The notes under the pieces: generated by a model | Seen by the model: only the letters and a program-made list of their open reading frames with translations | Told to the model about the DNA's origin: nothing | The model's database searches: none | From: Synergistota bacterium | GTDB lineage: Bacteria > Synergistota > GBS-1 | Reading direction: 5' to 3' | DNA: 64,000 bases | Assembly (NCBI GenBank): GCA_025060595.1 | Contig: JANXBX010000001.1 | Span: 186,001 to 250,000 of the forward strand | Shown: positions 1-56,365 of the stretch, one piece after another | Layout of the letters: each line of letters starts with the position of its first letter | Position numbering within the stretch: the first letter of the stretch is position 1 | Translations under genes and position numbers: made by a program

Positions 1-397
1 ATTCAGCAGTAACATCACAAAGGATATTCAAGAAATCCATAAGTTTATTATAGGCAGACTGAATATCCCCTTCAGTAGGAAGGCTCCTTGACCTACCATT
101 ACCAAACACATAATAGCGCGCACCAAGCTCCGCTGTTCTATAAGCTCCTATCTTTAGATATTCAGTCCAATACTTTAAATCAAAATCTGGAGAAGCTATA
201 CGAACATCAAGAGGAATAGGATTATCAAAAACTTCACAGGTTATGTCAAGGCTTTTAATTTTCTTAAGCGCTGCTTTAAACTCATCCTCACTAAGCTCTA
301 CAATTTCTCTTACCTGAAGCTCTGCACAATCATAGCCCGCTTTCTCTATAGCTTCAAGATCTTTTATTTTGCCAAAGCAAGAGAGCTTCATTTTCAT
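1..397 (-). CDS. Sugar phosphate isomerase/epimerase-like TIM-barrel protein, C-terminus cut by window edge
   Basis: This frame is open from an ATG at 397 to the left edge without a stop, so only about the first 132 residues are seen. The start (MKMKLSCFGKI) follows a strong GGGGGTGA Shine-Dalgarno and lies 14 bases after the stop of the upstream dehydrogenase, so the two are co-transcribed. The N-terminal pattern (short beta strand, DLEAIEKAGYDCAELQ, then a second strand around the CEVFDNP segment) resembles AP-endonuclease-2/xylose-isomerase-like TIM barrels. These act on ketoses, inosose or keto-sugar acids. Sitting last in an operon with a creatininase-family hydrolase and two dehydrogenases, it could be a keto-acid epimerase like IolO of Thermotoga, but the visible part does not decide the substrate. 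Confidence 0.6.
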   Translation of the reverse strand, partial: MKMKLSCFGKIKDLEAIEKAGYDCAELQVREIVELSEDEFKAALKKIKSLDITCEVFDNPIPLDVRIASPDFDLKYWTEYLKIGAYRTAELGARYYVFGNGRSRSLPTEGDIQSAYNKLMDFLNILCDVTAE

Positions 398-411
398 AAC
401 CTTTTCACCCC

Positions 412-1455
412 CTAATTTATCTTAACCAATACTTTAATTTCCTCACCATCAGCTGATAGCTTCCTAAAGGCTTCAGGTACTTCTTCCAAAGAACAAACTG
501 AGGTAATCATACTTTTAACATCAAGCTTCCTCTGAGCTATATAGTTCATTACCTCATACATTTCATTAGTGAACATATAGCTACCATAGATGGTCAGCTT
601 TCTTCCAACTATCTCAACAGGGTTTACCTCAACATTCTTCCTTATTATGCCAACTAATACGATATCACCACCATTTCTGACAAGCTTAAACGAGTCTTTA
701 AGAGCTGATGGTACACCAGCAGCAACTATAACCCTATCAAAACCAACTTTATCAACCAAACCTAATAAACTCTCTACTGGTTCATCTTTAACATTTAAAA
801 CATAATCCGCCCCAAGCTTTTTAGCAACTTCAAGCTTAAAATCAACCACATCAGTTACTACAATCTTACCTGATCCTAAAACTTTTAAAAATTCCAATAT
901 CATTAAACCTATAGGTCCGGCTCCGATAACTGCTACATTCTCGCCCTTTTCGAAATTTCCTTCCTTAGCTGCAGAAAGACATACAGATAATGGTTCTAAC
1001 AAGGCACCTTCCTCAAAACTAACTTCCTCGTGCAAAGGGACAAGAGCAAATTCAGGAACACAAACATACTCAGCAAAAGCACCGTCACACCGCTTCTTCT
1101 CAACACCTAACGTTCTTCCAACGCTTCTTCTATAAGGGCATAAGTTTATCCAACCTCTTTGACAGTAATAACACTTACCACAATAAAGCATAGGGTTAAC
1201 GCTAACTCTTTGACCAACCCTATCTTTTGAGACACCTGGGCCTACTTCAACAATCTCTCCTGAAAACTCATGCCCAAATATAATAGGTGGTATAGCTCTA
1301 TCAGAGCCTATCTTGTACTCTTCTACATCAGAACCACATATTCCAGCAAACTTAACCTTTATACAAACCTCACCCTCCTTAGGAATAGGCTTGGGAACCA
1401 TCTCATAACGCATATCGCCAGGTCCATGAAAGACAACCGCTCTCATGTAATCCAT
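412..1455 (-). CDS. Zinc-dependent MDR alcohol/polyol dehydrogenase (IolM-like candidate)
   Basis: Medium-chain dehydrogenase of about 347 residues that should oxidise a secondary alcohol of a polyol or sugar with NAD(P). Visible features are the catalytic zinc ligands Cys40 and the GHE motif (His62-Glu63), four structural-zinc cysteines at about 92, 95, 98 and 106, and a GAGPIG nucleotide-binding loop near 178-182. The ATG at 1455 (MDYMRAVVF) is preferred to a start 18 bases upstream because GGGGAGGGGAG lies just before it. It is a paralogue of the dehydrogenase at 2524-3555; both share a G(S/T)YM(F/Y)xxEM segment near the C-terminus. Lying directly downstream of a creatininase-family hydrolase, it could be the inosose dehydrogenase of an inositol-like route. 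L-threonine or sorbitol dehydrogenase-like activity is an alternative. Confidence 0.85.
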   Translation of the reverse strand: MDYMRAVVFHGPGDMRYEMVPKPIPKEGEVCIKVKFAGICGSDVEEYKIGSDRAIPPIIFGHEFSGEIVEVGPGVSKDRVGQRVSVNPMLYCGKCYYCQRGWINLCPYRRSVGRTLGVEKKRCDGAFAEYVCVPEFALVPLHEEVSFEEGALLEPLSVCLSAAKEGNFEKGENVAVIGAGPIGLMILEFLKVLGSGKIVVTDVVDFKLEVAKKLGADYVLNVKDEPVESLLGLVDKVGFDRVIVAAGVPSALKDSFKLVRNGGDIVLVGIIRKNVEVNPVEIVGRKLTIYGSYMFTNEMYEVMNYIAQRKLDVKSMITSVCSLEEVPEAFRKLSADGEEIKVLVKIN

Positions 1456-1484
1456 ACAAGCTCCCCTCCCCAAAGTTTATACTT

Positions 1485-1519
1485 AAGGGCGTGACGTTTA
1501 CTAAAATTGTCACGCCCTT
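1485..1519 (-). other. Intercistronic stem-loop between hydrolase and dehydrogenase genes
   Basis: An 11-bp perfect inverted repeat (AAGGGCGTGAC with its complement, loop of 13 bases) sits between two co-directional genes. The minus strand beyond it is not a run of T, so it does not look like a simple intrinsic terminator. An mRNA-stabilising or processing hairpin is more likely. Confidence 0.6.
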
Positions 1520-1530
1520 GAACAAGCACA

Positions 1531-2496
1531 TTATGGTGGCCATGCAATTACATAAATATGCTTACCACCTTTTGTAGGACCTTTAAGCACAGCTTCTATG
1601 AGCTCAGGATCTCTCTGAGTGATCAGTTTAGCATCCGGCAACTTCCCAGGTGGGAATATAGATAAGATATCATTGTGAAGCTTAAGTAGATAATCGCAAG
1701 CTCTTTCTATACAGGCTCTTGCCTTTTCTGCCTTCGCCTTAGTAGCTTTACCAAGTACTCCCTCAGGAGCGGTGATACATTCAATACCTACATTACCTAC
1801 TTGACAGTGTCCAGGTATCGGATAACCGTATATATCTCCACCCCTATCCACATGACCAGGAGGCAGATAACCCTTTATAGTTGTATCCTCCGCATGCTCC
1901 ATATCACAGAACTCCGGGAAAAGAGCTAAAGAAATAGATGTTTCAGCCTCATCCGCATGCTGAAATGGCGTCTCAAATGGACCACCGTGCTCCTTATCCA
2001 TAAGAGTCTGTCCCATAACGCGCGGCAGATCCACGAAGAGTATTAAAGCTGGAACTTGATACTTTTTAGCCCATTCCTGAATAGCTGAAGGAATAATATA
2101 TTCCTGCCCATGCATACTTATGAATATCTGTTTTCTAAATCCGGTATTCCAGTAACCCGTTATTATAGCTCTTATCATAGCAGCGAAAACATCATCAGGA
2201 AGAGGAACTGTACCCGGTTGACCAATGTGATGGAATGGATGCGAACCATACCATATCGGAGAAGCTATAGTACAGCCAGCCTTAGCCGCAACCATTTCAG
2301 CTATCCTCGTCACAATAAAGGTATCTTCACCCATTGGACCTGCGCTCCCATGATTCTCTGTTGAACCCACGGGAACTAAAAGAATATCATTAACCTTTAG
2401 CCTCTCTTCAACATCTCTCCTAGTCATCGTGTGATAGTACATCTTATTAGGTTTTTCAATACAACCTTCGTTTGGAAATTTCCACTCTCCCATCAT
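1531..2496 (-). CDS. Creatininase-family amidohydrolase, IolN-like (3-dehydro-scyllo-inosose hydrolase candidate)
   Basis: Protein of 321 residues of the creatininase superfamily. The metal-site pattern is visible: GSTENHG (Glu47, His49), Asp58, SMHGQE (His129) and HADEAETS (His180, Glu185). The family opens cyclic amides or, in Thermotoga IolN, a cyclic diketo-inositol ring. The long C-terminal extension after the ETS motif and the placement between two MDR dehydrogenases and an epimerase fit the IolN-type branch better than true creatininase, but the assignment comes from context and memory of the family. An AAGGAGGG ribosome-binding site precedes tandem ATG codons at 2496 and 2493; either can be the start. 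Confidence 0.75.
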   Translation of the reverse strand: MMGEWKFPNEGCIEKPNKMYYHTMTRRDVEERLKVNDILLVPVGSTENHGSAGPMGEDTFIVTRIAEMVAAKAGCTIASPIWYGSHPFHHIGQPGTVPLPDDVFAAMIRAIITGYWNTGFRKQIFISMHGQEYIIPSAIQEWAKKYQVPALILFVDLPRVMGQTLMDKEHGGPFETPFQHADEAETSISLALFPEFCDMEHAEDTTIKGYLPPGHVDRGGDIYGYPIPGHCQVGNVGIECITAPEGVLGKATKAKAEKARACIERACDYLLKLHNDILSIFPPGKLPDAKLITQRDPELIEAVLKGPTKGGKHIYVIAWPP

Positions 2497-2523
2497 CTAC
2501 CCTCCTTACTTTCAAGGATCTTT

Positions 2524-3555
2524 TTAAGGATATAGAATAACCTTTATATCCTTAGACTTTCCTGATGCTAACTCCTCAAAGATCCTCGGACCCTCACTTA
2601 ATGGATACACACCTGTAATAATCTTCTCTACATCCATCTTGCCGCTTTTAAGTATCTCAAGGCCTTCAATCATCTCTGTTATATACATATAGGTCCCTTT
2701 GAAACACAGTTCCCTTGCAACAGCCATCTTGTAATCGATATCTACTGTAGTTGCACCAAGACCTATCCATATGACAGTCCCTCCATTACGAACCATCTGA
2801 GCGCTATCCTTAACAGTTTCAGCAAAACCAACAGCATCAAAAACCACATCAGCTCCTGCATCATTAGTCATCTTTCTCACAACCTCAGATGCCTTCTCCC
2901 TATTTGGATTTATAATCACATCTGCCCCACACTCTTTAGCCATCTGGAGTCTATTATCTAATACCTCCATCGCAAATACCCTCTTAGCTCCATAGTACTT
3001 CGCAGACATGACTGTCAAAAGACCTATAGGTCCAGCACCATAAACCGCTACCTCCTTACCCTCTAAGCTACCTACATGCTTTACAGCACGAAGAACATTA
3101 GCTAAAGGCTCTATCAAAGCAGCTGCATTGAAGGAAACGTTATCGGGTAGCTTTATAACCTTATTAGCTGGAGCAACTACATATTCCGCCATAGCCCCAT
3201 TGTAAGAACCCGCCTTCATCGTAGTACCTATTATCCTACGGTTTTCACAAATGTTAATAAATCCAGCTTTACAGTTAGGACAATCACCACAATACAAATT
3301 GGTCTCAACTATTACACGATCCCCAACATTGATTCCCTTTACCCCTTCGCCTAACTTAGCTATCTCACCTGAGAACTCATGTCCCATAATAAGAGGGGGT
3401 ACTCTAAAGGGAGATTTCCCTCTATAACCGTTTAAGTCTGAACCACATATGGAAACAGCTTTTACCTTAATTAGAACCTCTCCTTGCTTAGGTTCAGGGG
3501 TTTCCACATCTACATACCTTATATCCCCTGCACCGTAAAAAACTAAAGCTTTCAT
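2524..3555 (-). CDS. Zinc-dependent MDR polyol/sugar dehydrogenase
   Basis: Dehydrogenase of 343 residues. Catalytic zinc ligands are Cys37 (ICGSD), His59 and Glu60 (GHEFSGE). The structural zinc lobe has cysteines at 89, 92, 95 and 103, and the Rossmann loop GAGPIG is at about 173-178. The family oxidises polyols such as galactitol phosphate, sorbitol, threonine or inosose. It is first of the two paralogous dehydrogenases in this operon and is separated from the upstream TRAP binding-protein gene by a strong hairpin. With the creatininase-like hydrolase next to it, the two dehydrogenases may carry out successive oxidations of one ring or chain. The exact substrate cannot be read from the sequence. 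Confidence 0.85.
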   Translation of the reverse strand: MKALVFYGAGDIRYVDVETPEPKQGEVLIKVKAVSICGSDLNGYRGKSPFRVPPLIMGHEFSGEIAKLGEGVKGINVGDRVIVETNLYCGDCPNCKAGFINICENRRIIGTTMKAGSYNGAMAEYVVAPANKVIKLPDNVSFNAAALIEPLANVLRAVKHVGSLEGKEVAVYGAGPIGLLTVMSAKYYGAKRVFAMEVLDNRLQMAKECGADVIINPNREKASEVVRKMTNDAGADVVFDAVGFAETVKDSAQMVRNGGTVIWIGLGATTVDIDYKMAVARELCFKGTYMYITEMIEGLEILKSGKMDVEKIITGVYPLSEGPRIFEELASGKSKDIKVILYP

Positions 3556-3580
3556 ATTTCTGCCCCCCTTTATTTATTTT

Positions 3581-3615
3581 GTTGGCTCCCCCACCAGGTG
3601 GTGGGGGGAGCCAAC
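3581..3615 (-). other. Strong stem-loop downstream of TRAP binding-protein gene
   Basis: A GC-rich inverted repeat of about 15 bp (GTTGGCTCCCCCACC and its near-perfect complement) with a short loop lies 13 bases after the dctP stop. The bases beyond it on the minus strand are A-rich, not T-rich, so complete termination is unlikely. It probably protects the upstream dctP message or partly limits read-through to the enzyme genes. Confidence 0.7.
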
Positions 3616-3627
3616 CTGATCGAACTC

Positions 3628-4644
3628 TTATTTCTTTACCTGAGTTATAGCAAGTAAGAGATCATCGACGATTTCACTACCTACAGCACTTCTTACCATA
3701 TCAGCAACGCCCTTTGCTGCTTCTTTCATTCTCTGCCTCATTTCCGGTGTAACCTCTATAATTTCCATACCTTTCTTCTGAAGCTCAACCAACATAGCGC
3801 TAGTTTGAGTTTTAGATTCCTTAAACAGATATTCGCTAACCTCGTTAGTTACATCAGTTACTGTCTTCTGATAGTCAGCAGGCATACCATCATATAGCTT
3901 CTTGTTCATTATGTAGGTAAACACAAAACATATATGATGTGTATTAACCACATATTTCTGAACCTCGTAGAACTTAGCAGACCAAATTATCTCGTATGGG
4001 TTCTCCTGAGCATCTACTATACCCTGCTGCAAGGCTACGTAAAGTTCAGCAAAGCTAAGAGGCGTAGGATTAGCTCCCAAAGCTCTCCAGAAAGCTAAAT
4101 GATATTTGTTTTCCATAGTCCTTATCTTCAAACCCTTAAGATCATCTATACTCTTTACCGGTTTCTTCGTAGTGAGCTCGCGGAAGTAAATAGGTGTAAA
4201 CATAAGAAGCTTAAAGCCAGCCTTTTCGTAATCTGGAATAAGCTTACCTTTAAACGGATCTAATGCCTTTTTTGCAACATCCAAATCATCAAAAAGCATA
4301 GCTATATCAAACACAGCAAGCTTAGGAACAAAACCAACCATGGGAGCGGTAGTTAAAGAAACCATAGCTATATTTCCAGCCTGACAACTTTCAACGGTTT
4401 CTCTATCTCCTCCAAGCTTAGAGTCAAGATATAGCTCAACCTTTATTTTTCCATTAGATTTCTTCTCAAGTAACTCCTTAAAAAGCTTAGCAGCTAATAC
4501 CCTTGGAGTATCTTGAGCGCTAGGATAGGCCCCTGCTAACTGCAAAGTGTACTGTTGGGCATACGCTGGAACATCGCCCACTACCAAGCCCATAAGCCCT
4601 ATCACTAAACTAACCACCACTACACCCGCTAGAAGCTTTTTCAT
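3628..4644 (-). CDS. TRAP transporter solute-binding protein, DctP family
   Basis: Periplasmic binding protein of 338 residues for a tripartite ATP-independent transporter. The signal peptide comprises a lysine pair, a long hydrophobic stretch and a likely cleavage site after AYA near residue 30. The DctP fold is recognised by the GQxGDRETVE-like segment (LGGDRETVESCQAGNIAM), the conserved arginine region GLKIRTMENK, and the FAELYVALQQGIVDAQENP stretch. The ATG at 4644 is preferred to a GTG one codon earlier because of its spacing to GGAGGGGAG. It lies immediately downstream of dctQ and dctM and should deliver an organic or sugar acid to them. The ligand is unknown; neighbouring genes suggest a sugar acid, polyol or keto acid. 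Confidence 0.93.
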   Translation of the reverse strand: MKKLLAGVVVVSLVIGLMGLVVGDVPAYAQQYTLQLAGAYPSAQDTPRVLAAKLFKELLEKKSNGKIKVELYLDSKLGGDRETVESCQAGNIAMVSLTTAPMVGFVPKLAVFDIAMLFDDLDVAKKALDPFKGKLIPDYEKAGFKLLMFTPIYFRELTTKKPVKSIDDLKGLKIRTMENKYHLAFWRALGANPTPLSFAELYVALQQGIVDAQENPYEIIWSAKFYEVQKYVVNTHHICFVFTYIMNKKLYDGMPADYQKTVTDVTNEVSEYLFKESKTQTSAMLVELQKKGMEIIEVTPEMRQRMKEAAKGVADMVRSAVGSEIVDDLLLAITQVKK

Positions 4645-4714
4645 CACTGCTCCCCTCCTCTAAGAGAGATTTTTAAATCTCAGAAAAAGACCGCTAAGTT
4701 AAAACCTTATCTCA

Positions 4715-6016
4715 TCACCCCCTTCTAACTAAAATCAAGCTAATATCTGGTATATAAGTCACTAGAAAGAGCGCAACTATAAAAGCCAAGATAAATGGTA
4801 TAGCCTGCTTTCCGACATCCATAACAGGTCTCTCTACAAGCGGACAGGCAACGAAGAGATTAACACCAAAAGGTGGTGTTGCCATACCTACAGCTAAATT
4901 TATAGACATTACTATTCCCAAATGCACGGGATCTATACCTAAAGCTACAGCTGCTGGCAAAAGCATCGGTGCTAATATGGCTATAACTGGTCCTATATCC
5001 ATAAACATACCTATGATAAGGAAAAGAACATTTAAACCCAATAAGAAAAGAGCTGCATTGCCACCGAAGTTAGTCACTATAAAATCCCTAACGACCTGTG
5101 GAACTTGAAGTAGCGCTAAAACACGTCCAAAAACTATAGCTAAGGATAGAAGCATAACTATTGGAGTGTAAGCCCTAACAGAGTTAATCAGTATTCTTGG
5201 AAGATCCTTAAGGCTTAAAGTCTTGTATATAAAAAGACAAGCTAAAAAGGAGTAAAAGACCGAAATAACAGCCGCTTCCGTAGGAGTAACAACACCTGTA
5301 TATATCCCTCCTAAGACAATCACTGGACTTAAGAGAGCCCAAAAACTCTCTCTAAAAACTCTAAAGAAACCTCTAGATCTTAACTCGTTATATTTAGTTT
5401 GGATTCTTACCCTATCCTCACCTTTAGTCACAGCATATATATAAGCATAGGCCATCAAGCATAAACCTATCGTTATCCCAGGGAAAATACCTGCTATAAA
5501 CAAATCCCCTATAGATGTTCCGGTTACAACACCATATGTCACAAAGGGAATGCTCGGAGGAATTATTACGCCTAAACCACCAGCAGTCGCTATCATTCCA
5601 GCAACAAAGGTCTTATCATACCCTAGGGAAATTAAAAAAGGTATAGCCATACTCCCCACGGCTGCAGTTGTAGCCACACCTGATCCCGAAATAGCCCCAT
5701 AAAACATAGCTGTAGCTATAGTAGCCATAAGCATCCCAGCTCTAACCTTCCCTAAGAAGAACACAAAGAAGTCGAAGAGCTTTTCAGATATCTTACCTCT
5801 CGTCATTATATCTCCAGCTAGTATGAAAAGCGGGATAGCAAGTATAGGGGTATTATCAAGAGCATTTACCATATTTCTAATCACAAAGTTTATATTCCCA
5901 GCAACGAAACGAGGATTTAATAAACCAGGAATTATCGTAGCCAAACCGAGCGAAACCAATAAAGGAACGCCCAATAGCAAACAAACAAGCATTACGATAA
6001 AAGCTATAGTTCCCAT
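4715..6016 (-). CDS. TRAP transporter large permease, DctM family
   Basis: Integral membrane protein of 433 residues with about 12-13 hydrophobic segments. It is the transport subunit that couples solute import to a sodium or proton gradient. DctM marks include the GSGVATTAAVGSMAIPFL-like glycine/serine-rich segment near 105-125, the IPPSIPFVTYGVVTG loop, and the C-terminal SINLAVGMATPPFGVN stretch. It is 13 bases downstream of dctQ and upstream of dctP, forming a complete QMP set within the operon. Confidence 0.94.
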   Translation of the reverse strand: MGTIAFIVMLVCLLLGVPLLVSLGLATIIPGLLNPRFVAGNINFVIRNMVNALDNTPILAIPLFILAGDIMTRGKISEKLFDFFVFFLGKVRAGMLMATIATAMFYGAISGSGVATTAAVGSMAIPFLISLGYDKTFVAGMIATAGGLGVIIPPSIPFVTYGVVTGTSIGDLFIAGIFPGITIGLCLMAYAYIYAVTKGEDRVRIQTKYNELRSRGFFRVFRESFWALLSPVIVLGGIYTGVVTPTEAAVISVFYSFLACLFIYKTLSLKDLPRILINSVRAYTPIVMLLSLAIVFGRVLALLQVPQVVRDFIVTNFGGNAALFLLGLNVLFLIIGMFMDIGPVIAILAPMLLPAAVALGIDPVHLGIVMSINLAVGMATPPFGVNLFVACPLVERPVMDVGKQAIPFILAFIVALFLVTYIPDISLILVRRG

Positions 6017-6029
6017 GTTATTTCCTCCT

Positions 6030-6527
6030 TCACTTTTCTGCCTTTAAGGTACTCAAACCTTGCTTCCTAAACATTTCTATTATGCTTTGAATAGACCTAA
6101 CAGTTGCAAGAAAGAATCCCACATTAGCTGAAAAATAAACCAAATACATAGGAATCTCCATAGCAGGGCTTGTTTGCCCACTATCCTTTATCATCTTAAC
6201 TACAGGGATGGAGTTCACAAATAGATAAACAAAGAAAATCAAAACGAAAAACTCCACACCTATCTTTAAAAATCTCTTAATATTTAAAGGTAATACTTCA
6301 ACCAAAGAATCAACCCTTAATATCGTTTTTTTCCTTATGCTATAACCTATACTTAAAAGAGAAGACCATACAAATAGATACCGGCAAACCTCTTCAGCCC
6401 AGGAGAGCGACGATCCAACCACATAACGCATAAAAACTTGAAGCATCATCACACAAGCAATCAAAACGAGAAAGATGCTTAAAATTAGCTCCTCTAAATG
6501 CTGATCTATCCATCTTACAACAGCCAC
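6030..6527 (-). CDS. TRAP transporter small permease, DctQ family
   Basis: Membrane protein of 165 residues with four hydrophobic segments and the DctQ signature region LSWAEEVCRYLFVW near residues 40-55. It forms the membrane complex with the DctM subunit encoded just downstream. It starts at a GTG preceded by AAAGGAGGGATAG; that site lies just beyond a terminator-like hairpin, so expression of the transporter may be partly uncoupled from the upstream enzymes. Confidence 0.9.
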   Translation of the reverse strand: MAVVRWIDQHLEELILSIFLVLIACVMMLQVFMRYVVGSSLSWAEEVCRYLFVWSSLLSIGYSIRKKTILRVDSLVEVLPLNIKRFLKIGVEFFVLIFFVYLFVNSIPVVKMIKDSGQTSPAMEIPMYLVYFSANVGFFLATVRSIQSIIEMFRKQGLSTLKAEK

Positions 6528-6543
6528 CCTCTATCCCTCCTTT

Positions 6544-6584
6544 AAAAATAAAAGGCGGTAGCGAAAACTCTAACTACCGCCTTT
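6544..6584 (-). terminator. Terminator-like hairpin inside the operon, between cupin gene and dctQ
   Basis: Perfect 11-bp stem (6551-6561 with 6574-6584, AAAGGCGGTAG and complement), followed on the minus strand by TATTTTTAAA. This has the shape of an intrinsic terminator. Since the dctQ ribosome-binding site follows at once and no obvious new promoter is seen, it may act as a partial terminator or attenuator. Confidence 0.6.
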
Positions 6585-6592
6585 AAATGTCT

Positions 6593-6967
6593 TTATGTTT
6601 TTCCCTCCTCTTTTCTGTGACTCTTAAGCTGAGGAGAATATATCCATATAAACTTGAGGGGCTCGTCTCCCGTGTTAACGATAGAGTGATACTCTCCTGG
6701 AGGATTATAAATACACACTCCCGGTTCTAAAGGTATCTCCTCATCCTTGGTTATAAACTTTCCTCTACCCTGTAAAAAAATCATAACCTCTTCCTCATTG
6801 TCATGCTTATGCTCTGGAACCCTACTTCCCACATAAGTCTCGTTTATACCTACAGCTAAATTTTTAGCCCCTACAGTTTTTTCTGAAACCAATATCCACG
6901 ACTTTCTTGGAGGCTCTCTATATTCTCCCTCTACCTCACTTATGCGAATAACTTTTACTCTCGACAT
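6593..6967 (-). CDS. Single-domain cupin protein
   Basis: Small 124-residue cupin. The first cupin motif is visible as EHKHDNEEEVMIFLQGRG (GxHxHxxxE-like, with H-K-H-D and E) and the second as PGVCIYNPPGEYHSIVNTGD, ending with a histidine. Such proteins bind a metal and act as sugar-acid isomerases, dioxygenases or ligand sensors. It lies 16 bases downstream of the aldehyde oxidoreductase and upstream of the TRAP genes, so a role with the same substrate is likely. A non-enzymatic binding role cannot be excluded. Confidence 0.85.
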   Translation of the reverse strand: MSRVKVIRISEVEGEYREPPRKSWILVSEKTVGAKNLAVGINETYVGSRVPEHKHDNEEEVMIFLQGRGKFITKDEEIPLEPGVCIYNPPGEYHSIVNTGDEPLKFIWIYSPQLKSHRKEEGKT

Positions 6968-6982
6968 ACCCCTACCCCCCTA

Positions 6983-8713
6983 TTAGAAGATATTTGGATC
7001 CATTTCAATATCCCATATACTCTCTAATTCCTCCTGAGGAATATCGAATACCGAGTTATGCGGAGGCAACGGTTCCTCCCTCATAAACTCTGGAATTCTC
7101 TTAAACCTCTCCGACACTCCAGCAAGCTCATTAAACTTTCTCTCAATATTTAAAACTTCAACCCCTATATGTTTTGCATCCTTAAAACTTAAATCCCAAC
7201 CATACCTCGCTCTAAATAGTCCACCTAATAAATCCGGATTTTTAATAAAAGCGGGTCTTATAAACAAACACACTCCCATCGAATCTATCAATGCTGCCCT
7301 TATCTGAAGCTGCCTCGATATGCGAACCTGCCCTTCTTTAGAAAGCGGATCATGATACCTCACGGTTTCAAAGGCATTACCAGCTGTATGATCTGCACCC
7401 ATTGTAGACGTAGCATACAATACTCCATTTCCTTTCAACCCTCTTGGATCATAAGCGGGCATAGCCTGCCCTTTGACTACCGGAACCCTTCTTACACCAA
7501 AAGCCTGGCCTGTGAAAGCCGCACCATTACCTATAACTCTACCTAAAACCGTTCCTTCTCCTATCTGTCTTATCAAATCTTTTGCTCCCTTCGCATCTCC
7601 AAACTTTATAACCCCAGCTTCCATAGCTACACCTATAGCCGCGCCAATCTCTATTGTGTCAACACCAACCTCATTGCATAGATGATTCAACTCAGCTACC
7701 GCATCCACATCTCCTATACCACAGTTAGGTCCCAATAAAACAACACTTTCATATTGAAGAGTCGCCACTATCTTTTTACCAGCTTTGTCTGGGAAAATAT
7801 GACTACACATTATAGTACAACTTGGTACACACTGAGTCCCGCTTTTACCACAACCTCCTCTACTTCTTATAAGCTCAGCCACCGCCGGACCTGTAAAGTT
7901 ATCAGCAAACTCAAACTGCCCCACGCTAAAGTTCCTCGTTGGGAGAAACCCTAATTTATTAACCATCTCTAAGATATCGAGGGTTCCATATTTCCTCCTA
8001 TTCTGGCTCTTAGGATCCTCCTTAAGAATCTTTGCAACCTCCTTGACAATATCGCTTAGCAATTTGGGGTCATGATAATCAGGTTCAACCGTTTCAGAAT
8101 CATCTACAACTATCGCTTTTATTCCCTTCGATCCCATCACAGCCCCCAAGCCGCCTCTTGCAGCATACCTTACTTGCTCTAACCTATCATCAGTGAGAGC
8201 TATACCAGCACCGTAAAGCTTCATCTCCCCAGCAGGACCTATACATATAAGTCCTTTTCTATCTCCAAACTCCTTCCTTAATAGGTCAAAAGTCTCACTA
8301 ACAACTTTTCCCTTAAGATAGGGGGCATCAATAAGCCTCGCTTCACGAGCGCTAACATATAAGACCCTAGTCTGCTCTCTATCTGGAATATCTTCTAATA
8401 TTATTGCCTTTACACCTATCCGTGCCAGCTTTTTACCAGCACTACCACCAGAATTGCATTCCTTTACGCCACCAGTAAGCGGACTTTTACCACCAATAGA
8501 AACTCTTCCACTTGTGCTTAAATTAGTATCAGCAAAATATCCAGAAGAAATTATTAGCTTGTTATATCTACCCAAAGGCTCACAGGTTGGTGGAACCTCA
8601 TCTAATAAAACCTTAGCTATATAATATCTACCAGCATATTTACGTTCCTCCGATGTTGCGATCGACTCCTTAATTTCACCAGTTTTTGTGTTAACTCTAA
8701 TTATCCTTCTCAT
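6983..8713 (-). CDS. Tungsten/molybdenum-dependent aldehyde:ferredoxin oxidoreductase family protein
   Basis: Enzyme of 576 residues that oxidises an aldehyde to the acid with ferredoxin as acceptor, using a bis-pterin tungsten or molybdenum centre and one 4Fe-4S cluster. Family marks are the N-terminal AOR segment (LIISSGYFADT, SGRVSIGGKSPLTGG), the ARGGLGAVMGSKGIKAI stretch near residue 185, a cysteine group C-x3-C-x3-C (CVPSCTIMC, near 295-303), and a distant fourth cysteine in SMGVCLF. The mid-protein ATSTMGADHTAGN motif is also typical. A MoaD/ThiS-like sulfur carrier at the head of the same operon fits pterin-cofactor assembly. The aldehyde substrate is unknown but may be produced by the neighbouring aldolase or dehydrogenases. 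Confidence 0.93.
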   Translation of the reverse strand: MRRIIRVNTKTGEIKESIATSEERKYAGRYYIAKVLLDEVPPTCEPLGRYNKLIISSGYFADTNLSTSGRVSIGGKSPLTGGVKECNSGGSAGKKLARIGVKAIILEDIPDREQTRVLYVSAREARLIDAPYLKGKVVSETFDLLRKEFGDRKGLICIGPAGEMKLYGAGIALTDDRLEQVRYAARGGLGAVMGSKGIKAIVVDDSETVEPDYHDPKLLSDIVKEVAKILKEDPKSQNRRKYGTLDILEMVNKLGFLPTRNFSVGQFEFADNFTGPAVAELIRSRGGCGKSGTQCVPSCTIMCSHIFPDKAGKKIVATLQYESVVLLGPNCGIGDVDAVAELNHLCNEVGVDTIEIGAAIGVAMEAGVIKFGDAKGAKDLIRQIGEGTVLGRVIGNGAAFTGQAFGVRRVPVVKGQAMPAYDPRGLKGNGVLYATSTMGADHTAGNAFETVRYHDPLSKEGQVRISRQLQIRAALIDSMGVCLFIRPAFIKNPDLLGGLFRARYGWDLSFKDAKHIGVEVLNIERKFNELAGVSERFKRIPEFMREEPLPPHNSVFDIPQEELESIWDIEMDPNIF

Positions 8714-8729
8714 TAACTTTATACCCCCC

Positions 8730-9767
8730 TTAGTTTAATCTTAAACTTGAACCAAGCTTAATTAGAAGGGAGTTTATAGAAGAAGCTAACTTCTCATCTA
8801 TCTCTACGCCTTCTTTCTTGCTTTTCCCCTCTTTCCTAAACTCTATTTCACCAGGTATAAGAATCTCTTCAACACCACATGCTTTTTTAAGATTTTTAAC
8901 CGTTTCAAAGTAATTTTTCATCTTTCTTCTAAACTCAGCTACGTCTATAAAACGAGAAACATCTATAACTATACATGAAGCTCCTACTCTTGTTGGCCCC
9001 TCAAGGATATGAAAAGATTTAAGCTGATTTCCATATCCGGATCCAGCCAATAATCCACAAACGATATCCACGGCCATAGCTAAAGCAGAACCCTTAGGTC
9101 CACCTATCGGCATTAATGTTCCCTCAAGGGCCTTTTCAGGATCAGTAGTCGGTTTGCCCTCACAATCTAAGGCCCATCCCTCCGGTATCTTCACGCCCTT
9201 TCTCTGAGCCTCTCTTATCTTACCTCGCGCTACAACGCTTGTTGCCATGTCCATAGTAAAATTCATACCATCGCCAGGTATGGAAAGAGCTATGGGATTC
9301 GTTCCCAAAAATTTTTCAGCAGCTCCCCACGGAGCCATCGAAGGCGCTGCATTAGAGACCATCAAAGCCATCATTCCCTGTTCAGCTGCCCTTTCAGTAT
9401 AACAACCAAGACAACCCACATTATTAGTATTACGTATTAAAGCCATACCTATACCATATTTTTTCGCCTTCTCAATAGCCTTTTCCAAAGCTAGATAACC
9501 AGCCACCATACCTATACCATCTTTACCATCTATAAGAAGAGTAGCTTCTTCATCATATAAAACTTCTACTTCGGTAGGCAACTTAAGTTGTCCTCCCTCA
9601 ACTCGCATAGCTATTACGTTTAAAAGATATATACCGTGCGTCGAAACTCCTCTCATGTCTGCTCTCACCAATATCTCAGCTATTCTCTTAGCATTTTCAT
9701 GACTCTCTCCTAATCTTCTTAAAATATCTTCCGTAACAAGCTTTAACTTTTCCACAGCAACCTTCAA
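8730..9767 (-). CDS. Ldh2-family NAD(P)-dependent malate/lactate/ureidoglycolate-type dehydrogenase
   Basis: Protein of 345 residues of the malate/L-lactate dehydrogenase (YlbC/AllD/ComC) family, which interconverts 2-hydroxy acids and 2-oxo acids. The signature RADMRGVSTHG lies near residues 34-44. The GTNPIALSIP segment and the GGPKGSALAMAVDIVCGLLAGSGYG region, both typical for this fold, are also present. It sits between an RraA-type aldolase gene and the aldehyde oxidoreductase, consistent with oxidation of a 2-hydroxy acid whose product is cleaved or further oxidised. The C-terminus is somewhat extended by a lysine-rich tail. Confidence 0.9.
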   Translation of the reverse strand: MKVAVEKLKLVTEDILRRLGESHENAKRIAEILVRADMRGVSTHGIYLLNVIAMRVEGGQLKLPTEVEVLYDEEATLLIDGKDGIGMVAGYLALEKAIEKAKKYGIGMALIRNTNNVGCLGCYTERAAEQGMMALMVSNAAPSMAPWGAAEKFLGTNPIALSIPGDGMNFTMDMATSVVARGKIREAQRKGVKIPEGWALDCEGKPTTDPEKALEGTLMPIGGPKGSALAMAVDIVCGLLAGSGYGNQLKSFHILEGPTRVGASCIVIDVSRFIDVAEFRRKMKNYFETVKNLKKACGVEEILIPGEIEFRKEGKSKKEGVEIDEKLASSINSLLIKLGSSLRLN

Positions 9768-9792
9768 AGCCCTCTGCCTCCCCTTGACCTAT

Positions 9793-10464
9793 TTACTCTT
9801 CCCTTAAACCAAGTCTTTCCAAAACCTCGCGAAGATTGTTATACTCTACGCTTGATACCCCTGTCTTAAGAACCTCTCTCTTTTTATTCTCATCAGCCAC
9901 TCTTTTTAATGCTTTCTCTAAAATAATCCCAGCCTCTTCTCTTTTTATCACTACAACCCCATCGTTATCTCCCAAAACTAAATCACCCGCATTAACTACT
10001 ACACCACCAATAGAAAGGGGATAATTTATCAACCCCAAGGCTTCCTTAGAAGTACCTCTAATAGAAAAACCTCTGCAAAAAATCGGAAAACCCATACTAA
10101 CTATCTCTTCAGAGTCCCTAATGCAACCATCTATTACTAAACCTGCAATACCTTTCGCCATAGCCGAAACAGTCATTAGCTCTCCCCAATAACCATATTC
10201 ATAAGCACCACTAGTTACAGCAACAATGACATCTCCTTCCTCTGCAACTTCTAAAGCCTTATGAAGCATAAGATTATCACCAGGAGCGCATTGAACAGTT
10301 ATAGCAGAACCGCATAACTTCATTCCCCAATATATAGGTCTTATAAAATTAGAAACCGCACCTTTACGTCCAGCAGCTTCATACACGGTCGCTGAGGACA
10401 GAGATTTAAATGCACTTATGATCTCCTTCTCTGGTCGCCTAAAGCTTTTAATAACATGAATCAA
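9793..10464 (-). CDS. RraA/HMG aldolase family protein (4-hydroxy-4-methyl-2-oxoglutarate aldolase-like)
   Basis: Protein of about 223 residues. Family marks are ATVYEAAGRKGAVSNFIRPI near the N-terminus, AKGIAGLVIDGCIRDSEEI (the G-x-x-x-D-x-x-x-R-D aldolase site), and VNAGDLVLGDNDGVVVIKRE. Members either cleave 4-hydroxy-2-oxo acids or decarboxylate oxaloacetate; true RraA inhibits RNase E. The GGGGGG stretch best supports a TTG start at 10464, though an in-frame GTG at 10470 and longer forms are possible. It lies between a MoaD-like gene and an Ldh2-type dehydrogenase in a catabolic operon, so aldolase or decarboxylase activity is more likely than RNA regulation. Confidence 0.87.
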   Translation of the reverse strand: MIHVIKSFRRPEKEIISAFKSLSSATVYEAAGRKGAVSNFIRPIYWGMKLCGSAITVQCAPGDNLMLHKALEVAEEGDVIVAVTSGAYEYGYWGELMTVSAMAKGIAGLVIDGCIRDSEEIVSMGFPIFCRGFSIRGTSKEALGLINYPLSIGGVVVNAGDLVLGDNDGVVVIKREEAGIILEKALKRVADENKKREVLKTGVSSVEYNNLREVLERLGLREE

Positions 10465-10490
10465 GCCCACTACCCCCCATCTATCTAAGG

Positions 10491-10709
10491 TTAACCTCCA
10501 CACATAGCAACAAACAAATGAATTTCATCCCCATCATAAACCAAATCATTACTACCTATCCTAAAAGACCCTCTAACGAAAACTATATCTGCCAACAGAT
10601 CTTCCTTAATCCCGATTTTCTCGGCTACTTCCCTTAAAGGTAATGAACCATTTACAGACAATTCACAAGTAAATCTACTTAAAATACCATGTCCTACTAT
10701 TTTTACCAT
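10491..10709 (-). CDS. MoaD/ThiS-like small sulfur-carrier protein
   Basis: About 72 residues with a beta-grasp pattern and a C-terminal double glycine (HLFVAMCGG). That end is adenylated and thiocarboxylated in MoaD and ThiS so it can donate sulfur. A longer reading frame runs to 10805, but the promoter with its -10 box at 10728-10733 lies inside that extension, so the start is ATG 10709 (MVKIVGHG) or 10715. It is the first gene of the operon containing the aldehyde ferredoxin oxidoreductase, so it most likely serves pterin-cofactor assembly, as MoaD-like proteins beside AOR genes do. Its stop overlaps the purine-rich region upstream of the RraA-like gene. Confidence 0.8.
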   Translation of the reverse strand: MVKIVGHGILSRFTCELSVNGSLPLREVAEKIGIKEDLLADIVFVRGSFRIGSNDLVYDGDEIHLFVAMCGG

Positions 10710-10727
10710 TCCCATCTTTCCATTTAT

Positions 10728-10757
10728 ATTGTAATTGCTTATTAGAAGAGATGTCAA
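10728..10757 (-). promoter_or_regulatory. Sigma-70-type promoter for the AOR/TRAP catabolic operon
   Basis: On the minus strand TTGACA (10752-10757) and TACAAT (10728-10733) are separated by 18 bases. The predicted start lies only about 6-12 bases before the first ATG of the MoaD-like gene, giving a very short leader. Confidence 0.7.
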
Positions 10758-10770
10758 TTGGGTTTCTATC

Positions 10771-10803
10771 AATAAATAAAATATGCTTCCATATAGTGGA
10801 AGC
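10771..10803 (-). terminator. Intrinsic terminator of the ispA-recN operon
   Basis: Perfect 7-bp stem GCTTCCA/TGGAAGC (10785-10791 with 10797-10803) with a 5-base loop, followed on the minus strand by ATATTTTATTTATT. It lies about 60 bases after the last gene of the run and just before the promoter of the next operon. Confidence 0.7.
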
Positions 10804-10863
10804 ACAAGAATAACCCTTATCCTACGAGGATTTTACTTAGAGGGATAATTTAGCAGTCCGATT

Positions 10864-24189: not shown

Positions 24190-25272
24190 TTAACAATACC
24201 TTTCCTTCATCTTACAAACGGCTTCCCAAAGCCCTAAAAGATAAGTTATACCCAAAGCCCTATCATAAAGACCATATCCAGGACGACCTTTCTCACCCCA
24301 TATCATCCTACCATGATCTGGTCTCACATAGCCTTTGTAATCCACATCACAAAGGGCTTTTACAATCTCAAACATATCATGAGAACCACAGAAAGAAGGA
24401 TGAGCCGTCTCATAAAACTTTCCACGCTCTACTATTTTGAGGTTTCTAAGATGAGCAAAATGTATTCTTCCCATTTTCCCGAAGTAGCGAATCATCTCCG
24501 GTATGTTGTTATCAGGGTTAGCTCCAAGCGATCCCATACAAAAAGTCAAACCATTATAAGGACTATCAACAGCCTTTAAGAAACGCTCTATGTTCTCCTT
24601 ATTAGTAACTATCCTAGGAAGACCAAATATACTCCATGGTGGATCGTCGGGGTGAATGGCAAGCTTAACATCACACTCCTCACATGTAGGAATAACAGCT
24701 TTAAGGAAGTAAACAAGATTTTCGAGAAGTTTATTTTCATCTATACTCTTATAAAGTTTGAAGGTCTCCTCAAGCTTAGCAAGTCTATCCCACTCCCATC
24801 CAGGGAGAATAACCCCATGAGAACCCTCTTTAACTCTCCTTATTAACTCCTGCGGCGTTATATTCTCTATCAAGCTATGATCATATTCCATAACCTCCGA
24901 GCCATCGGGCAACTTTTTGTGAAGATCCGTTCTCATCCAATCAAATACAGGCATGAAGTTATAGCATATAACCTTTACCCCAACCTTAGATAAATTCTTT
25001 ATCGTTTCTATATAGTTCTCTATATATCTATCTCTCGTAGGAAGACCAAGCTTGATATCCTCATGTACGTTTACACTCTCTATAACCTCCAGAGTAAGAC
25101 CCGCCCTTTCAACCACTTCCTTTAGCCGCTTAATCTTCTCAAGAGGCCAAACCTCACCCACAGGAACATCAAACAAAGCTCCCACAACTCCAACAACACC
25201 AGGAATCTGTCTTATCTGCTCTAAGGTTATATGATCATTTCCTTCCCCATACCACCTAAAGACCATCTTCAT
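24190..25272 (-). CDS. uxuA: Mannonate dehydratase
   Basis: Converts D-mannonate to 2-keto-3-deoxygluconate by loss of water, in the cytoplasm. At 360 residues the length is normal. UxuA features are the N-terminal MVFRWYGEGNDHI, VKVICYNFMPVFDWMRTD, HPDDPP, FCMGSLGA, FAHLRN and GYVRPDHGRM. These carry the metal-binding histidines, aspartates and cysteine. It is the last gene of the uronate operon, five bases after uxuB, and is followed by a strong terminator. Confidence 0.97.
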   Translation of the reverse strand: MKMVFRWYGEGNDHITLEQIRQIPGVVGVVGALFDVPVGEVWPLEKIKRLKEVVERAGLTLEVIESVNVHEDIKLGLPTRDRYIENYIETIKNLSKVGVKVICYNFMPVFDWMRTDLHKKLPDGSEVMEYDHSLIENITPQELIRRVKEGSHGVILPGWEWDRLAKLEETFKLYKSIDENKLLENLVYFLKAVIPTCEECDVKLAIHPDDPPWSIFGLPRIVTNKENIERFLKAVDSPYNGLTFCMGSLGANPDNNIPEMIRYFGKMGRIHFAHLRNLKIVERGKFYETAHPSFCGSHDMFEIVKALCDVDYKGYVRPDHGRMIWGEKGRPGYGLYDRALGITYLLGLWEAVCKMKERYC

Positions 25273-25276
25273 CCCC

Positions 25277-26893
25277 TTATCCCTCCCTTAAAACCTCTTC
25301 TAGGGTCTTCTTAACAGCACCTGGACCAGATATCATCTTCTTGAAATAACCTTCTATCTTTTTGCCTAAACCAACCTCATACAGATTAACCCTAAATAGC
25401 TGAGGACTAGAAAGTATAGGCTTTAGAGCATCTTTAACAGAATCAGGATCACCGAACTTAACTGAAGAAACATATCCCCTTAAAGCTTCTAACAATGGAT
25501 CAGGGCTTAACTCCATTCTCTTACCTTCGTCGTCTATACCCATCAGATACCTACACCAGCCAGCTATAACCAAGGGTATATATTTTAACTCTTTAACATC
25601 CAAGTCTGGCCTCTCATGATAAGATCTTATGGTCTCTCCAAACCTTATAGGAACCTTTTGAGAAGTATCAGTTGCAATTCTCTGTGGAGTATCAGGCATA
25701 TAAGGATTAGGAAGTCTCTCCTTTATAACTTCCTCTAAAAAGCTCTTAGGGCTTATTATCTTTGGATCAACAACAACTTTCATACCTTCCTCCCCAACGC
25801 CTTCTACAAGCTTCGCCAAAAGAGGATCTTTCATTTCATCAGCTATAGTTTTATAGCCTAAAAGGCAACCAAAAACAGCTAAAGAAGTATGAAGTGGGTT
25901 AAGACAAGCGGTAACTTTCATCCTCTCAGATTTCTCCACTGTTTCCCTATCAGTTAAAAATACATTTCTATCGCTTCCCTCCAGGGCTGGTCTTCCATTG
26001 GGGAAACTATCTTCTATAACCAGATATTGCGCTCTTTCCATATTCACAAAAGGAGCTATAAAGGTCTTCTTATCAGTTACACATATGTCCATATCAACCA
26101 ACCCAAGCCCTTCAAGATGTTTTTTGATAACTTCTGATGGCCTCGGGACTATCTTATCTATCATGCTCCAGGGGAATGCAACTTCCTTATTTATATAATT
26201 CAAAAATGCTTCCTCAACCATCTTCCCTTTAACCCATTCTTCCGCTATCTTATACACAGAGGAGTAAAGCTTTTCCCCGTTCTTAGAGAAATTATCTAGG
26301 CTAAGCATTGCTACCGGCAACCTACCTGCTTTAAACCTTTCATAAAGCAGGGATGTAACCTTACCCATAGAGCTTTTAGGCATAACAGGACCATTCTTCA
26401 TATCCTCTAATACTATAGGATAGAGCTTTCCTTCCTGATCCTCAAGATTGTACCCCTTTTCAGTGATAGTCAATGATACTATTTGAAGAGAAGGGGATCT
26501 GAACATCTCTTTCAAGCTATTCCAATCTTCATATAAAGGATCACCTTTAAAACCACAAACTATGCTACCTACAACTTTCTTTTCCAATGTACCGTCACTA
26601 TTTATAGTTATAGCTATACAGAGGTTGTCATAAGGGTAATATATTTTGTCTATTATCTCATAATCGAAAAGCTCCACTCCTATTACACCGGTATCTTCCT
26701 TTCCACTTTCAATCATATTCTGTACTATACCAGCTATAAATCCTCTGAATATGTTACCTGCTCCAAAGTGAATCAATTTCGGAGCTTTAAGAGTTCTCTC
26801 TCTCACCCTCTCTATGTCGAACTTAGGAAGACTAAAACCTTTATCAAGCCATGATTTTTTATCTTTTATGCCATCCAAACTAAGCCTAAGCAA
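25277..26893 (-). CDS. uxuB: Fructuronate reductase / mannonate oxidoreductase (mannitol dehydrogenase family)
   Basis: About 539 residues of the polyol-specific long-chain dehydrogenase family, reducing fructuronate to mannonate with NADH. Seen are the N-terminal HFGAGNIFRGFIAG nucleotide-binding motif, the SLDNFSKNG segment, and the catalytic-domain pieces VACLNPLHTSLAVFGCLLG (here CLNPLHTSLAVFG) and YIPLVIAGWCRYL. A TTG at 26893 following AGAGGTGAT just overlapping the kdgK stop is preferred to a TTG 45 bases upstream. The length matches the Thermotoga-type enzyme rather than the shorter E. coli one (about 490). Confidence 0.95.
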   Translation of the reverse strand: MLRLSLDGIKDKKSWLDKGFSLPKFDIERVRERTLKAPKLIHFGAGNIFRGFIAGIVQNMIESGKEDTGVIGVELFDYEIIDKIYYPYDNLCIAITINSDGTLEKKVVGSIVCGFKGDPLYEDWNSLKEMFRSPSLQIVSLTITEKGYNLEDQEGKLYPIVLEDMKNGPVMPKSSMGKVTSLLYERFKAGRLPVAMLSLDNFSKNGEKLYSSVYKIAEEWVKGKMVEEAFLNYINKEVAFPWSMIDKIVPRPSEVIKKHLEGLGLVDMDICVTDKKTFIAPFVNMERAQYLVIEDSFPNGRPALEGSDRNVFLTDRETVEKSERMKVTACLNPLHTSLAVFGCLLGYKTIADEMKDPLLAKLVEGVGEEGMKVVVDPKIISPKSFLEEVIKERLPNPYMPDTPQRIATDTSQKVPIRFGETIRSYHERPDLDVKELKYIPLVIAGWCRYLMGIDDEGKRMELSPDPLLEALRGYVSSVKFGDPDSVKDALKPILSSPQLFRVNLYEVGLGKKIEGYFKKMISGPGAVKKTLEEVLREG

Positions 26894-26900
26894 GATCCTA

Positions 26901-27923
26901 TCACCTCTCAACCCTTCCCGAAGTAGCTCCACCAGCAAGTTTTTCCACTTCGTCCTCGCTTAAACAAGAGAAATCACCAGGAATAGTATGCTTAAGACAG
27001 GAAGCTGCTCCGGCAAACTCTGCTTTCTTCTGAGAATCATATCCCTTAAGAGTAGCATATATTAATCCGCCAGCGAAACAATCTCCAGCTCCAACTCTGT
27101 CCACTATATAGTGAATTTCATACCTATTCGAGAAGTAAGGCTTACCATTTTCAAATATCATAACAGACCAGAAGTTGACCGTAGCAGAAAGGCTCTCTCT
27201 TAAAGTTATTCCCACCGTTTCAAGCTTATACTTACTAGCAATCTCTTCCGCAACCTTAACATAAGCCTCTCTTATAATCTTTCCTGTCTTAAGGTCCAAA
27301 CCTTCTATATGCATGCCCAAAACCTTTTCCATGTCTTCCTCGTTAGCTATAAGAACGTCCACGTATTCCATAAAAGGTATCATAACCCTTTGAGCTTCCT
27401 CTTTACTCCAGAGCTTAGCCCTATAGTTTAAGTCGCAGCTCACCTTTACTCCTTTCCCTTTTGCAACCTCAAGAGCATCCTTAACTATCAGAGGAAGCTC
27501 CTTACCCAAAGGTGGAGTTATACCAGAAAAGTGAAACCATTTAGCTCCATCAAGTATCCTCTCCCAGTTGAAATCCTCTCTCTTTGCTGCTGATATTGCA
27601 GAACCAGCTCTATCATACACAACCTTACTTGCCCTCTGAGAAGCACCTATCTCCAAGAAGTATATTCCTATTCTCTCCCCCCCTCTTGCAATATAGTCAG
27701 TTCTAACTCCATACTTTCTCAAATGCCCAATGGCAGCATCTCCCAAGGGATTTTTAGGTAGCTTAGAAACGAAATAAGCCTCAAATCCCATTTGAGCTAA
27801 GAAAGCAGCCACATTAGCCTCGGCTCCGCCATAGGTAACATCGAAACTCTCTGCCTGAAATAACCTCTTATAGTTGGGAGGACTTAACCTAAGCATAATC
27901 TCACCAAAAGTTACCACCTTCAT
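26901..27923 (-). CDS. kdgK: 2-keto-3-deoxygluconate kinase (PfkB family)
   Basis: Phosphorylates 2-keto-3-deoxygluconate from ATP, the step after UxuA. 340 residues with GEIMLRLSPPNY at the N-terminus, the YGGAEANVAAFLAQMG PfkB signature 1 region, DLNYRAKLWS, and the C-terminal DRVGAGDCFAGG with the catalytic aspartate. It lies in the uronate operon between the TRAP permease and uxuB. The KDPG aldolase gene that would complete the route is not in this window. Confidence 0.95.
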   Translation of the reverse strand: MKVVTFGEIMLRLSPPNYKRLFQAESFDVTYGGAEANVAAFLAQMGFEAYFVSKLPKNPLGDAAIGHLRKYGVRTDYIARGGERIGIYFLEIGASQRASKVVYDRAGSAISAAKREDFNWERILDGAKWFHFSGITPPLGKELPLIVKDALEVAKGKGVKVSCDLNYRAKLWSKEEAQRVMIPFMEYVDVLIANEEDMEKVLGMHIEGLDLKTGKIIREAYVKVAEEIASKYKLETVGITLRESLSATVNFWSVMIFENGKPYFSNRYEIHYIVDRVGAGDCFAGGLIYATLKGYDSQKKAEFAGAASCLKHTIPGDFSCLSEDEVEKLAGGATSGRVER

Positions 27924-27941
27924 TTTAGTACACCTCCTATA

Positions 27942-29822: not shown

Positions 29823-29849
29823 TTCGCTTTACCCCCTGAGTCAAGGTCA

Positions 29850-29882
29850 GGGTGAGCTCCCTCTTTAAAAGGGAACTCACCC
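29850..29882 (-). other. Stem-loop between TRAP binding protein and fused permease genes
   Basis: Imperfect 12-bp stem (GGGTGAGCTCCC pairing with GGGAACTCACCC, one mismatch) with a 9-base loop, 27 bases after the dctP stop. No T run follows on the minus strand, so an mRNA-stabilising or attenuating role that favours the binding-protein message is likely. Confidence 0.6.
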
Positions 29883-29908
29883 TCCAAACCACTTGAGCTT
29901 CCTAAAAA

Positions 29909-56064: not shown

Positions 56065-56364
56065 ATGATAGCTAAAAGAGGTGATTTTGTCCAAATCCAA
56101 GTTAAAATACTTGAACCTGGGGAAAGGGCTCCAAACCTACCAGAAGACACTAAAAGGGTTCCTTTCGAAATGAGGGTTAAGGGGTTTCTAATCGAAGAGG
56201 AAGCAAAATTAGGATCCAGCGTTAAAATAAGGACCTTTTCTGGCAGAGAGATAAGTGGAACCTTAGTAGCCATAAATCCAGTATACGAACATAACTTTGG
56301 CGAGCCGGTTCCTGAGCTCTTAAACATCGGTGAAGAGCTAAGAAAGATATTAGGAGGTGAATAG
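56065..56364 (+). CDS. ortA: 2-amino-4-oxopentanoate thiolase, small (alpha) subunit OrtA
   Basis: 99 residues from ATG 56065 (MIAKRGDFVQIQV), chosen for AAGGGGGTGA. It has the OrtA pattern: EPGERAPNLPEDTKRVPFEMRVKGFL near the start and INPVYEHNFGEPVPELL near the end. Together with OrtB it cleaves 2-amino-4-oxopentanoate with CoA to acetyl-CoA and alanine, the last step of the oxidative ornithine pathway of Clostridium sticklandii. The other pathway genes (ornithine racemase, aminomutase, dehydrogenase) are not in the window. Confidence 0.88.
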   Translation: MIAKRGDFVQIQVKILEPGERAPNLPEDTKRVPFEMRVKGFLIEEEAKLGSSVKIRTFSGREISGTLVAINPVYEHNFGEPVPELLNIGEELRKILGGE

Positions 56365-56365
56365 C

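Follow-up and report, generated by a model that had tools for sequence, protein, structure and literature searches.

The window analysed here, a 64,000-nucleotide stretch (G000:C1:186001-250000) within the 1.86-Mb genome of a Synergistota bacterium of the GBS-1 lineage, carried at its left end a catabolic operon that included a gene for an IolN-family carbon-carbon hydrolase. Judged by the identity of this protein, relatives of the host were 'bacterium GBS-1' (98%) and 'bacterium 42_11' (92%). Twelve minus-strand genes were arranged in the transcription order MoaD-like protein, RraA, Ldh2, aldehyde:ferredoxin oxidoreductase (AOR), cupin, DctQ, DctM, DctP, medium-chain dehydrogenase/reductase (MDR) b, IolN, MDRa and TIM-barrel epimerase. 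The intergenic gaps from the MoaD-like gene to the epimerase gene ranged from -13 to 72 bp (-13 to 80 bp when the next gene is included). A sigma-70-like promoter (10728..10757, minus strand) matched the consensus at 11 of 12 positions (TTGACA-N18-TACAAT); promoter-like sites overall were not commoner than in shuffled sequences, and this site is a consensus match. A terminator-like hairpin, likewise a consensus match only, preceded the operon on the same strand (10782..10806; 10806-10782 in the sense of transcription), with 10 pairs followed by TTTTATTTAT, and a 16-pair terminator-like hairpin lay 3' of the epimerase gene, about 420 bp to the left of the window edge (L002:13581-13544). The hairpins and the promoter-like site are consistent with one transcript rather than proof of it. 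The initial annotation had described a single minus-strand run, and this description held: all the genes it named were present, the gaps were short, a promoter-like site was found and hairpins flanked the run.

The first gene (10491..10715, with all operon genes on the minus strand) encoded a small MoaD/ThiS-like protein with a Gly-Gly end, and relatives (36-38%) were found at the same place in loci L004 and L005. The protein had no Pfam or NCBIfam match. The reading frame is listed from 10805, and the ATG at 10715, downstream of the promoter, is the more likely start; the product possibly contributes to the supply of tungsto- or molybdopterin to AOR. The next gene (9793..10503, with its actual start probably downstream of 10503) encoded an RraA-family protein, a putative 4-carboxy-4-hydroxy-2-oxoadipate (CHA) aldolase. 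CHA aldolase of Pseudomonas putida F1 cleaves CHA to pyruvate and oxaloacetate (PMC5065237). The operon protein scored 225.8 bits against PRK09262 (cut-off 179), and its best solved relative was 3NOJ. Eight residues that were mutagenised or bind metal in CHA aldolase (PMC5065237), namely N71, H75, R123, D124, T145, K147, R195 and E199, were invariant in 24 of 24 RraA proteins; the next solved relative differed at N71, H75, T145 and K147. The score, the solved relative and the active-site residues fit a CHA aldolase, and the score for the narrower model TIGR02798 (207.5 bits) was under its cut-off of 304.5. The initial annotation had seen an RraA-like gene here and had missed both this identity and the dehydroquinase link described below.

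The following genes encoded an Ldh2-family 2-hydroxyacid dehydrogenase (8730..9767; PF02615, 385 bits), closest among solved structures to L-sulfolactate dehydrogenase 2X06, and AOR (6983..8713), which had the AFOR_N and AFOR_C domains, 1AOR as its closest solved relative and cluster cysteines (Cys295, 299, 303 and 482) invariant in 32 of 32 sequences. The Cupin_2 protein (6593..6967) is proposed to be a ketose-aldose isomerase. This role is suggested by co-conservation, by the metal-binding residues H53, H55, E59, E60 and H94, invariant among 32 relatives, and by remote similarity to relatives that include cupin sugar-phosphate isomerases; it is a weak point of the proposal. Sequence and family matches identified a tripartite ATP-independent periplasmic (TRAP) transporter at 3628..6527 (DctQ 6030-6527, DctM 4715-6016 and DctP 3628-4647).

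The IolN-family protein (1531..2496; 321 aa), proposed to open a ring, scored 537 bits against NF041098 (cut-off 245) and 82 bits against the creatininase model, and its predicted model had the creatininase fold. The hydrolase was thus of the IolN family, as had first been supposed, and not an amide-cleaving creatininase. The initial annotation had further likened the two zinc dehydrogenases to IolM and the epimerase to IolO, and this likeness found no support. The dehydrogenases, MDRb (2524..3555) and MDRa (412..1473), both with ADH_N and ADH_zinc_N domains and both proposed to oxidise ring hydroxyls, scored 219.8 and 214.6 bits against the IolM model, under the cut-off of 450, which is a weak test, as a clear inositol-type locus (L024) scores only 165 (IolO there 285). 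The TIM-barrel epimerase/isomerase (PF01261) scored 48.5 bits for IolO, whose cut-off is 300. Its gene crosses the window edge, with the 5' part at 1..397 and the whole at G000:C1:185594-186397, and is complete in L002. A sequence search gave no solved relative for this protein; the folds closest to its model were ketose 3-epimerases, a ketoglucoside epimerase and xylose isomerase. A role as dehydroshikimate dehydratase was considered and found no support in this list of nearest folds, absence from which excludes nothing.

The survey of the IolN family covered 24 named loci together with three phyla, each sampled at about 400 genomes. The neighbourhoods of 70 IolN-family genes were mapped, 34 of these genes falling in a clade termed Q and 36 in inositol-type (I, 20 genes), AOR-linked without a lyase (R) or distant (D) clades. 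The clade names were given with knowledge of the gene contexts, and the Fisher tests take no account of relatedness. In the IQ-TREE mixture-model tree of 69 proteins, clade Q, which included the protein of the window, had an SH-aLRT of 100 and was set apart from I, R and D. It comprised 33 tree rows and 34 loci, the additional locus being the L022 fragment, which was kept out of the tree and entered under Q in the neighbour counts. This tree superseded a first FastTree, in which the support of the clade fork was 0.2 after rerooting. Clade Q occurred in Bacillota, Thermodesulfobacteriota, Spirochaetota, Chloroflexota, Planctomycetota and the GBS-1 lineage, and the core of the operon recurred in at least five bacterial phyla besides that of the host. 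Residues particular to clade Q (T23, Q93, D101, S127, E141 and D156) may reflect a different pocket. A search of a plasmid collection for IolN gave, among the matches listed, only distant creatininases with at most 35% identity.

RraA was near IolN at 24 of 34 clade Q loci, whereas none of the 36 other loci had it. Of the 34 clade Q loci, 29 had a lyase of a kind that suits a citrate-like tertiary alcohol (RraA, a member of the 3-hydroxy-3-methylglutaryl-CoA (HMG-CoA) lyase family or citrate lyase), against 0 of the 36 others. IolO accompanied 18 of the 20 inositol-type genes and none of the 34 in clade Q, whereas organic-acid transporters (TRAP or tripartite tricarboxylate, Tct) showed the reverse (0/20 and 31/34). 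RraA, Ldh2, AOR and cupin were all present at 22 of the 34 clade Q loci, and their order was the same wherever all four were listed, with the sole exception of L026, where AOR came first. The run is therefore not a chance arrangement. A TIM-barrel gene occurred at 16/34 loci, always alongside MDR genes. The cluster of gut Lachnospiraceae comprised GntR, an HMG-CoA-lyase-family gene, IolN, two MDR genes, TIM, an old-yellow-enzyme-family flavoprotein, a type I dehydroquinase, MFS and TRAP. An HMG-CoA-lyase-type gene was also carried by the planctomycete locus, and the Oscillibacter locus (L016) had a DASS transporter, CitE and CitF.

A dehydroquinase was found within 12.5 kb of IolN at 10 of the 34 clade Q loci, against 0 of 36 in the other clades, and both unrelated types of the enzyme were represented. 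By chance, about 0.3 loci would be expected within 12 kb, compared with the 10 seen, which fell in about five lineages. The AroD gene of the window genome itself was 12.3 kb from IolN. In each of five gut genomes the cluster held one type I dehydroquinase, and a second type I gene lay elsewhere. In the Syntrophaceae genome G006, a type I dehydroquinase adjoined IolN and a type II copy was about 29 kb off. The Spirochaetota genomes G013, G1195 and G1165 had a tandem type II pair at the locus and a long-frame type I enzyme (about 505-580 aa) elsewhere, which in G013 was an AroD-AroE fusion; in G806 a tandem dehydroquinase pair was present at the locus, and another pair lay about 400 kb from it. 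The copies beside IolN in the gut clostridia, the Syntrophaceae genome and the spirochaetes are additional to another dehydroquinase of the same genome. Tandem divergent type II dehydroquinases adjoined the TIM-barrel gene at L030:6038-7012, L026, L123 and L124, with H-Y-S in both copies; the usual motif of this type is H-T-S. In the Syntrophaceae genome (L019/L032, G006:C71), two paralogues resembling 5-enolpyruvylshikimate-3-phosphate synthase, 71% identical, lay downstream of the IolN cluster and were accompanied by acyl-CoA-dehydrogenase-like, MDR and short-chain dehydrogenase (SDR) genes.

According to the gene content and these neighbourhoods, we conclude with moderate confidence that the enzymes of the operon degrade a hydroaromatic acid, most likely quinate, without oxygen, in a route that ends at CHA aldolase. 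The substrate, the order of the steps and the roles of the MDRs and the cupin are those that we infer from the sequences. The acid would be imported by the TRAP transporter, and the two MDRs would oxidise the C3 and C5 hydroxyls of quinate, giving a 1,3-diketone that flanks the C4 hydroxyl. The IolN-family hydrolase would then add water and cleave the ring of 3,5-diketo-quinate in a retro-Claisen reaction to HOOC-CH2-C(OH)(COOH)-CH2-CO-CH2OH. The hydroxymethyl ketone would be turned into a 2-hydroxyaldehyde by the cupin, or with lower probability by the TIM barrel or KduI, and AOR would oxidise this aldehyde with reduction of ferredoxin. Oxidation of the 2-hydroxy group by the Ldh2 enzyme would yield CHA, and the RraA-family aldolase would split it into pyruvate and oxaloacetate. 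The balance from quinate to CHA is C7H12O6 + 2 H2O = C7H8O8 + 8 [H], where 8 [H] matches four two-electron oxidoreductases (two MDRs, AOR and Ldh2) and 2 H2O matches IolN and AOR. Shikimate could enter through shikimate dehydrogenase and dehydroquinase, joining at 3-dehydroquinate. An HMG-CoA-lyase-type enzyme could cut the ring-opened product into hydroxyacetone and oxaloacetate. For the clade as a whole, we consider it somewhat better than an even chance that it serves the breakdown of quinate and shikimate by a non-aromatic route without oxygen, with an IolN trunk that feeds CHA aldolase in most cases, an HMG-CoA-lyase-type enzyme in gut clostridia and the planctomycete, and a citrate-lyase-type enzyme in Oscillibacter.

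Several observations weigh against the quinate route. The TIM barrel is without a step in it. The AroE and AroD of the window genome may be biosynthetic, because both are single copies, type II dehydroquinase is absent from this genome and chorismate synthase is present; both genes are also behind terminator-like hairpins. They were dropped as proof of the substrate in the window genome, being single copies. The citrate-lyase variant is a single locus. Seven clade R loci (L094, L102, L108, L112, L115, L120 and L121) had IolN with AOR, cupin and Ldh2 and had no lyase, which shows that this trio also serves another IolN substrate, possibly another cyclic compound, and hence is not specific to the route. 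Several clade R loci also had nitroreductase-like, CoA-transferase-like (judged from sequence starts) and Tct genes. Finally, several clade Q genomes had no dehydroquinase of either type, and the MDR pair was swapped elsewhere for SDR, Gfo/Idh or weaker MDR genes.

These last two observations, with upper-pathway dehydrogenases that differ between loci and a lower module that stays constant, would also suit the same ring opening acting on another carboxylated cyclic polyol (a stereoisomer of quinate, another hydroxycyclohexane carboxylate or imported dehydroquinate), with quinate and shikimate not the main substrates. This alternative is unlikely, as both kinds of dehydroquinase were recruited repeatedly, pointing to the dehydroquinate/dehydroshikimate pair. 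A composite locus is less probable again. Here AOR (aldehyde detoxification), Ldh2 (2-hydroxyacid oxidation) and RraA (oxaloacetate decarboxylation) would act independently and merely share an operon with the IolN-type enzyme; RraA-family aldolases do also decarboxylate oxaloacetate (PMC5065237), and clade R carries the AOR trio without RraA, but the gene order was conserved in nearly all 22 four-gene loci, in several phyla, and the association with IolN had a p of about 5e-8 with relatedness ignored. Inositol catabolism of the Thermotoga type, in which IolG and IolM give 3-dehydro-scyllo-inosose, IolN gives 5-keto-L-gluconate and IolO leads through tagaturonate to the hexuronate route, had been raised in the initial annotation and is very improbable: the IolN equivalog score far over its cut-off, the adjacent Gfo/Idh genes and the presence of UxuA and uronate-type genes within the window speak for it, but the dehydrogenases and the epimerase missed the IolM and IolO cut-offs, the IolN clade is separate from the IolO- and sugar-ATP-binding cassette (ABC)-associated copies and has IolO beside none of its members, and no job is left for RraA, AOR, Ldh2 and the lyases. 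The broader guess of a cyclic polyol or a branched sugar acid came close to the substrate that we favour, quinate.

The proposed quinate route has partial counterparts in known systems. When IolN acts on 3-dehydro-scyllo-inosose, the ring 1,3-diketone is broken into a carboxylate and a hydroxymethyl ketone. The IolG-IolM-IolN-IolO inositol pathway of Thermotoga maritima was reportedly described by Rodionova in 2013, in a study cited in PMC5931981, where the intermediates are named. The operon shares with this pathway an IolN-family hydrolase for a ring 1,3-diketone and an adjoining zinc dehydrogenase and TIM-barrel gene; unlike it, the operon misses the IolM and IolO models, belongs to another IolN clade, adds cupin, AOR, Ldh2 and CHA aldolase, and has organic-acid (TRAP) rather than sugar ABC transporter genes. 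Aerobic catabolism of quinate and shikimate passes via 3-dehydroshikimate to protocatechuate. The substrates and the dehydroquinase chemistry are alike, whereas ring opening here would be non-aromatic, and no gene for an aromatising step or a ring-cleaving dioxygenase was identified in the operon. The aerobic protocatechuate 4,5-cleavage and gallate pathways also end with CHA aldolase, pyruvate and oxaloacetate (PMC5065237), whereas the CHA of the operon would form without oxygen, a dioxygenase or an aromatic intermediate. In phloroglucinol degradation by Clostridium scatologenes (PMC10470551), a hydroaromatic 1,3-diketone is likewise opened without oxygen in a retro-Claisen reaction by a metal hydrolase, followed by a C-C lyase; that hydrolase is of the unrelated 'cyclase' family, the substrate is free of carboxylate, and AOR, Ldh2 and CHA aldolase are lacking. 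Our literature search found no pathway or gene set described for quinate, shikimate, hydroaromatics or CHA aldolase in anaerobes.

To the left of the operon, on the same strand, were Gfo1, Gfo2, an Asp/Glu-racemase-family gene, ORF215, Cup2, KduI, TRAP2, AroE, AroD and TctCBA, in this order. These sets are probably separate transcription units, because further terminator-like hairpins follow ORF215, TRAP2 and TctC. Gfo1 and Gfo2 were Gfo/Idh/MocA dehydrogenases, one of them levoglucosan-dehydrogenase-like, and ORF215 had no family. The Gfo/Idh pair, the racemase-family gene, ORF215, the cupin, KduI and the second TRAP transporter (L002:5481-13514) appear to form another catabolic set. AroD had a perfect sigma-70-like promoter (TTGACA-17-TATAAT) and lay upstream of the tripartite tricarboxylate transporter genes TctCBA (L002:189-4223). 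Uronate genes had also been noted within the window; UxuA, a mannitol-dehydrogenase-family gene and a PfkB kinase were found at 24.2-30.9 kb, where with their own DctP they formed a separate hexuronate-type cluster (24190-30874, minus strand), and uxaC was not confirmed. On the plus strand, a Family 1 encapsulin shell protein (49331-50128; NF041155, 271 bits) was encoded, and OrtB, a subunit of 2-amino-4-oxopentanoate thiolase, adjoined glutamate dehydrogenase (56357-59274), which suggests ornithine fermentation.

If the proposed quinate route is true, a full oxygen-free path from opening of the quinate ring to pyruvate and oxaloacetate would exist in a small-genome, apparently anaerobic bacterium. 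Each proposed step has a candidate enzyme, occurring in cultured thermophiles (Fervidicola and Thermovorax) and in gut bacteria (Faecalicatena and Hespellia). Furthermore, the curated IolN 'equivalog' model probably spans enzymes with different substrates, and gut and environmental genomes may therefore be mis-annotated as inositol degraders.

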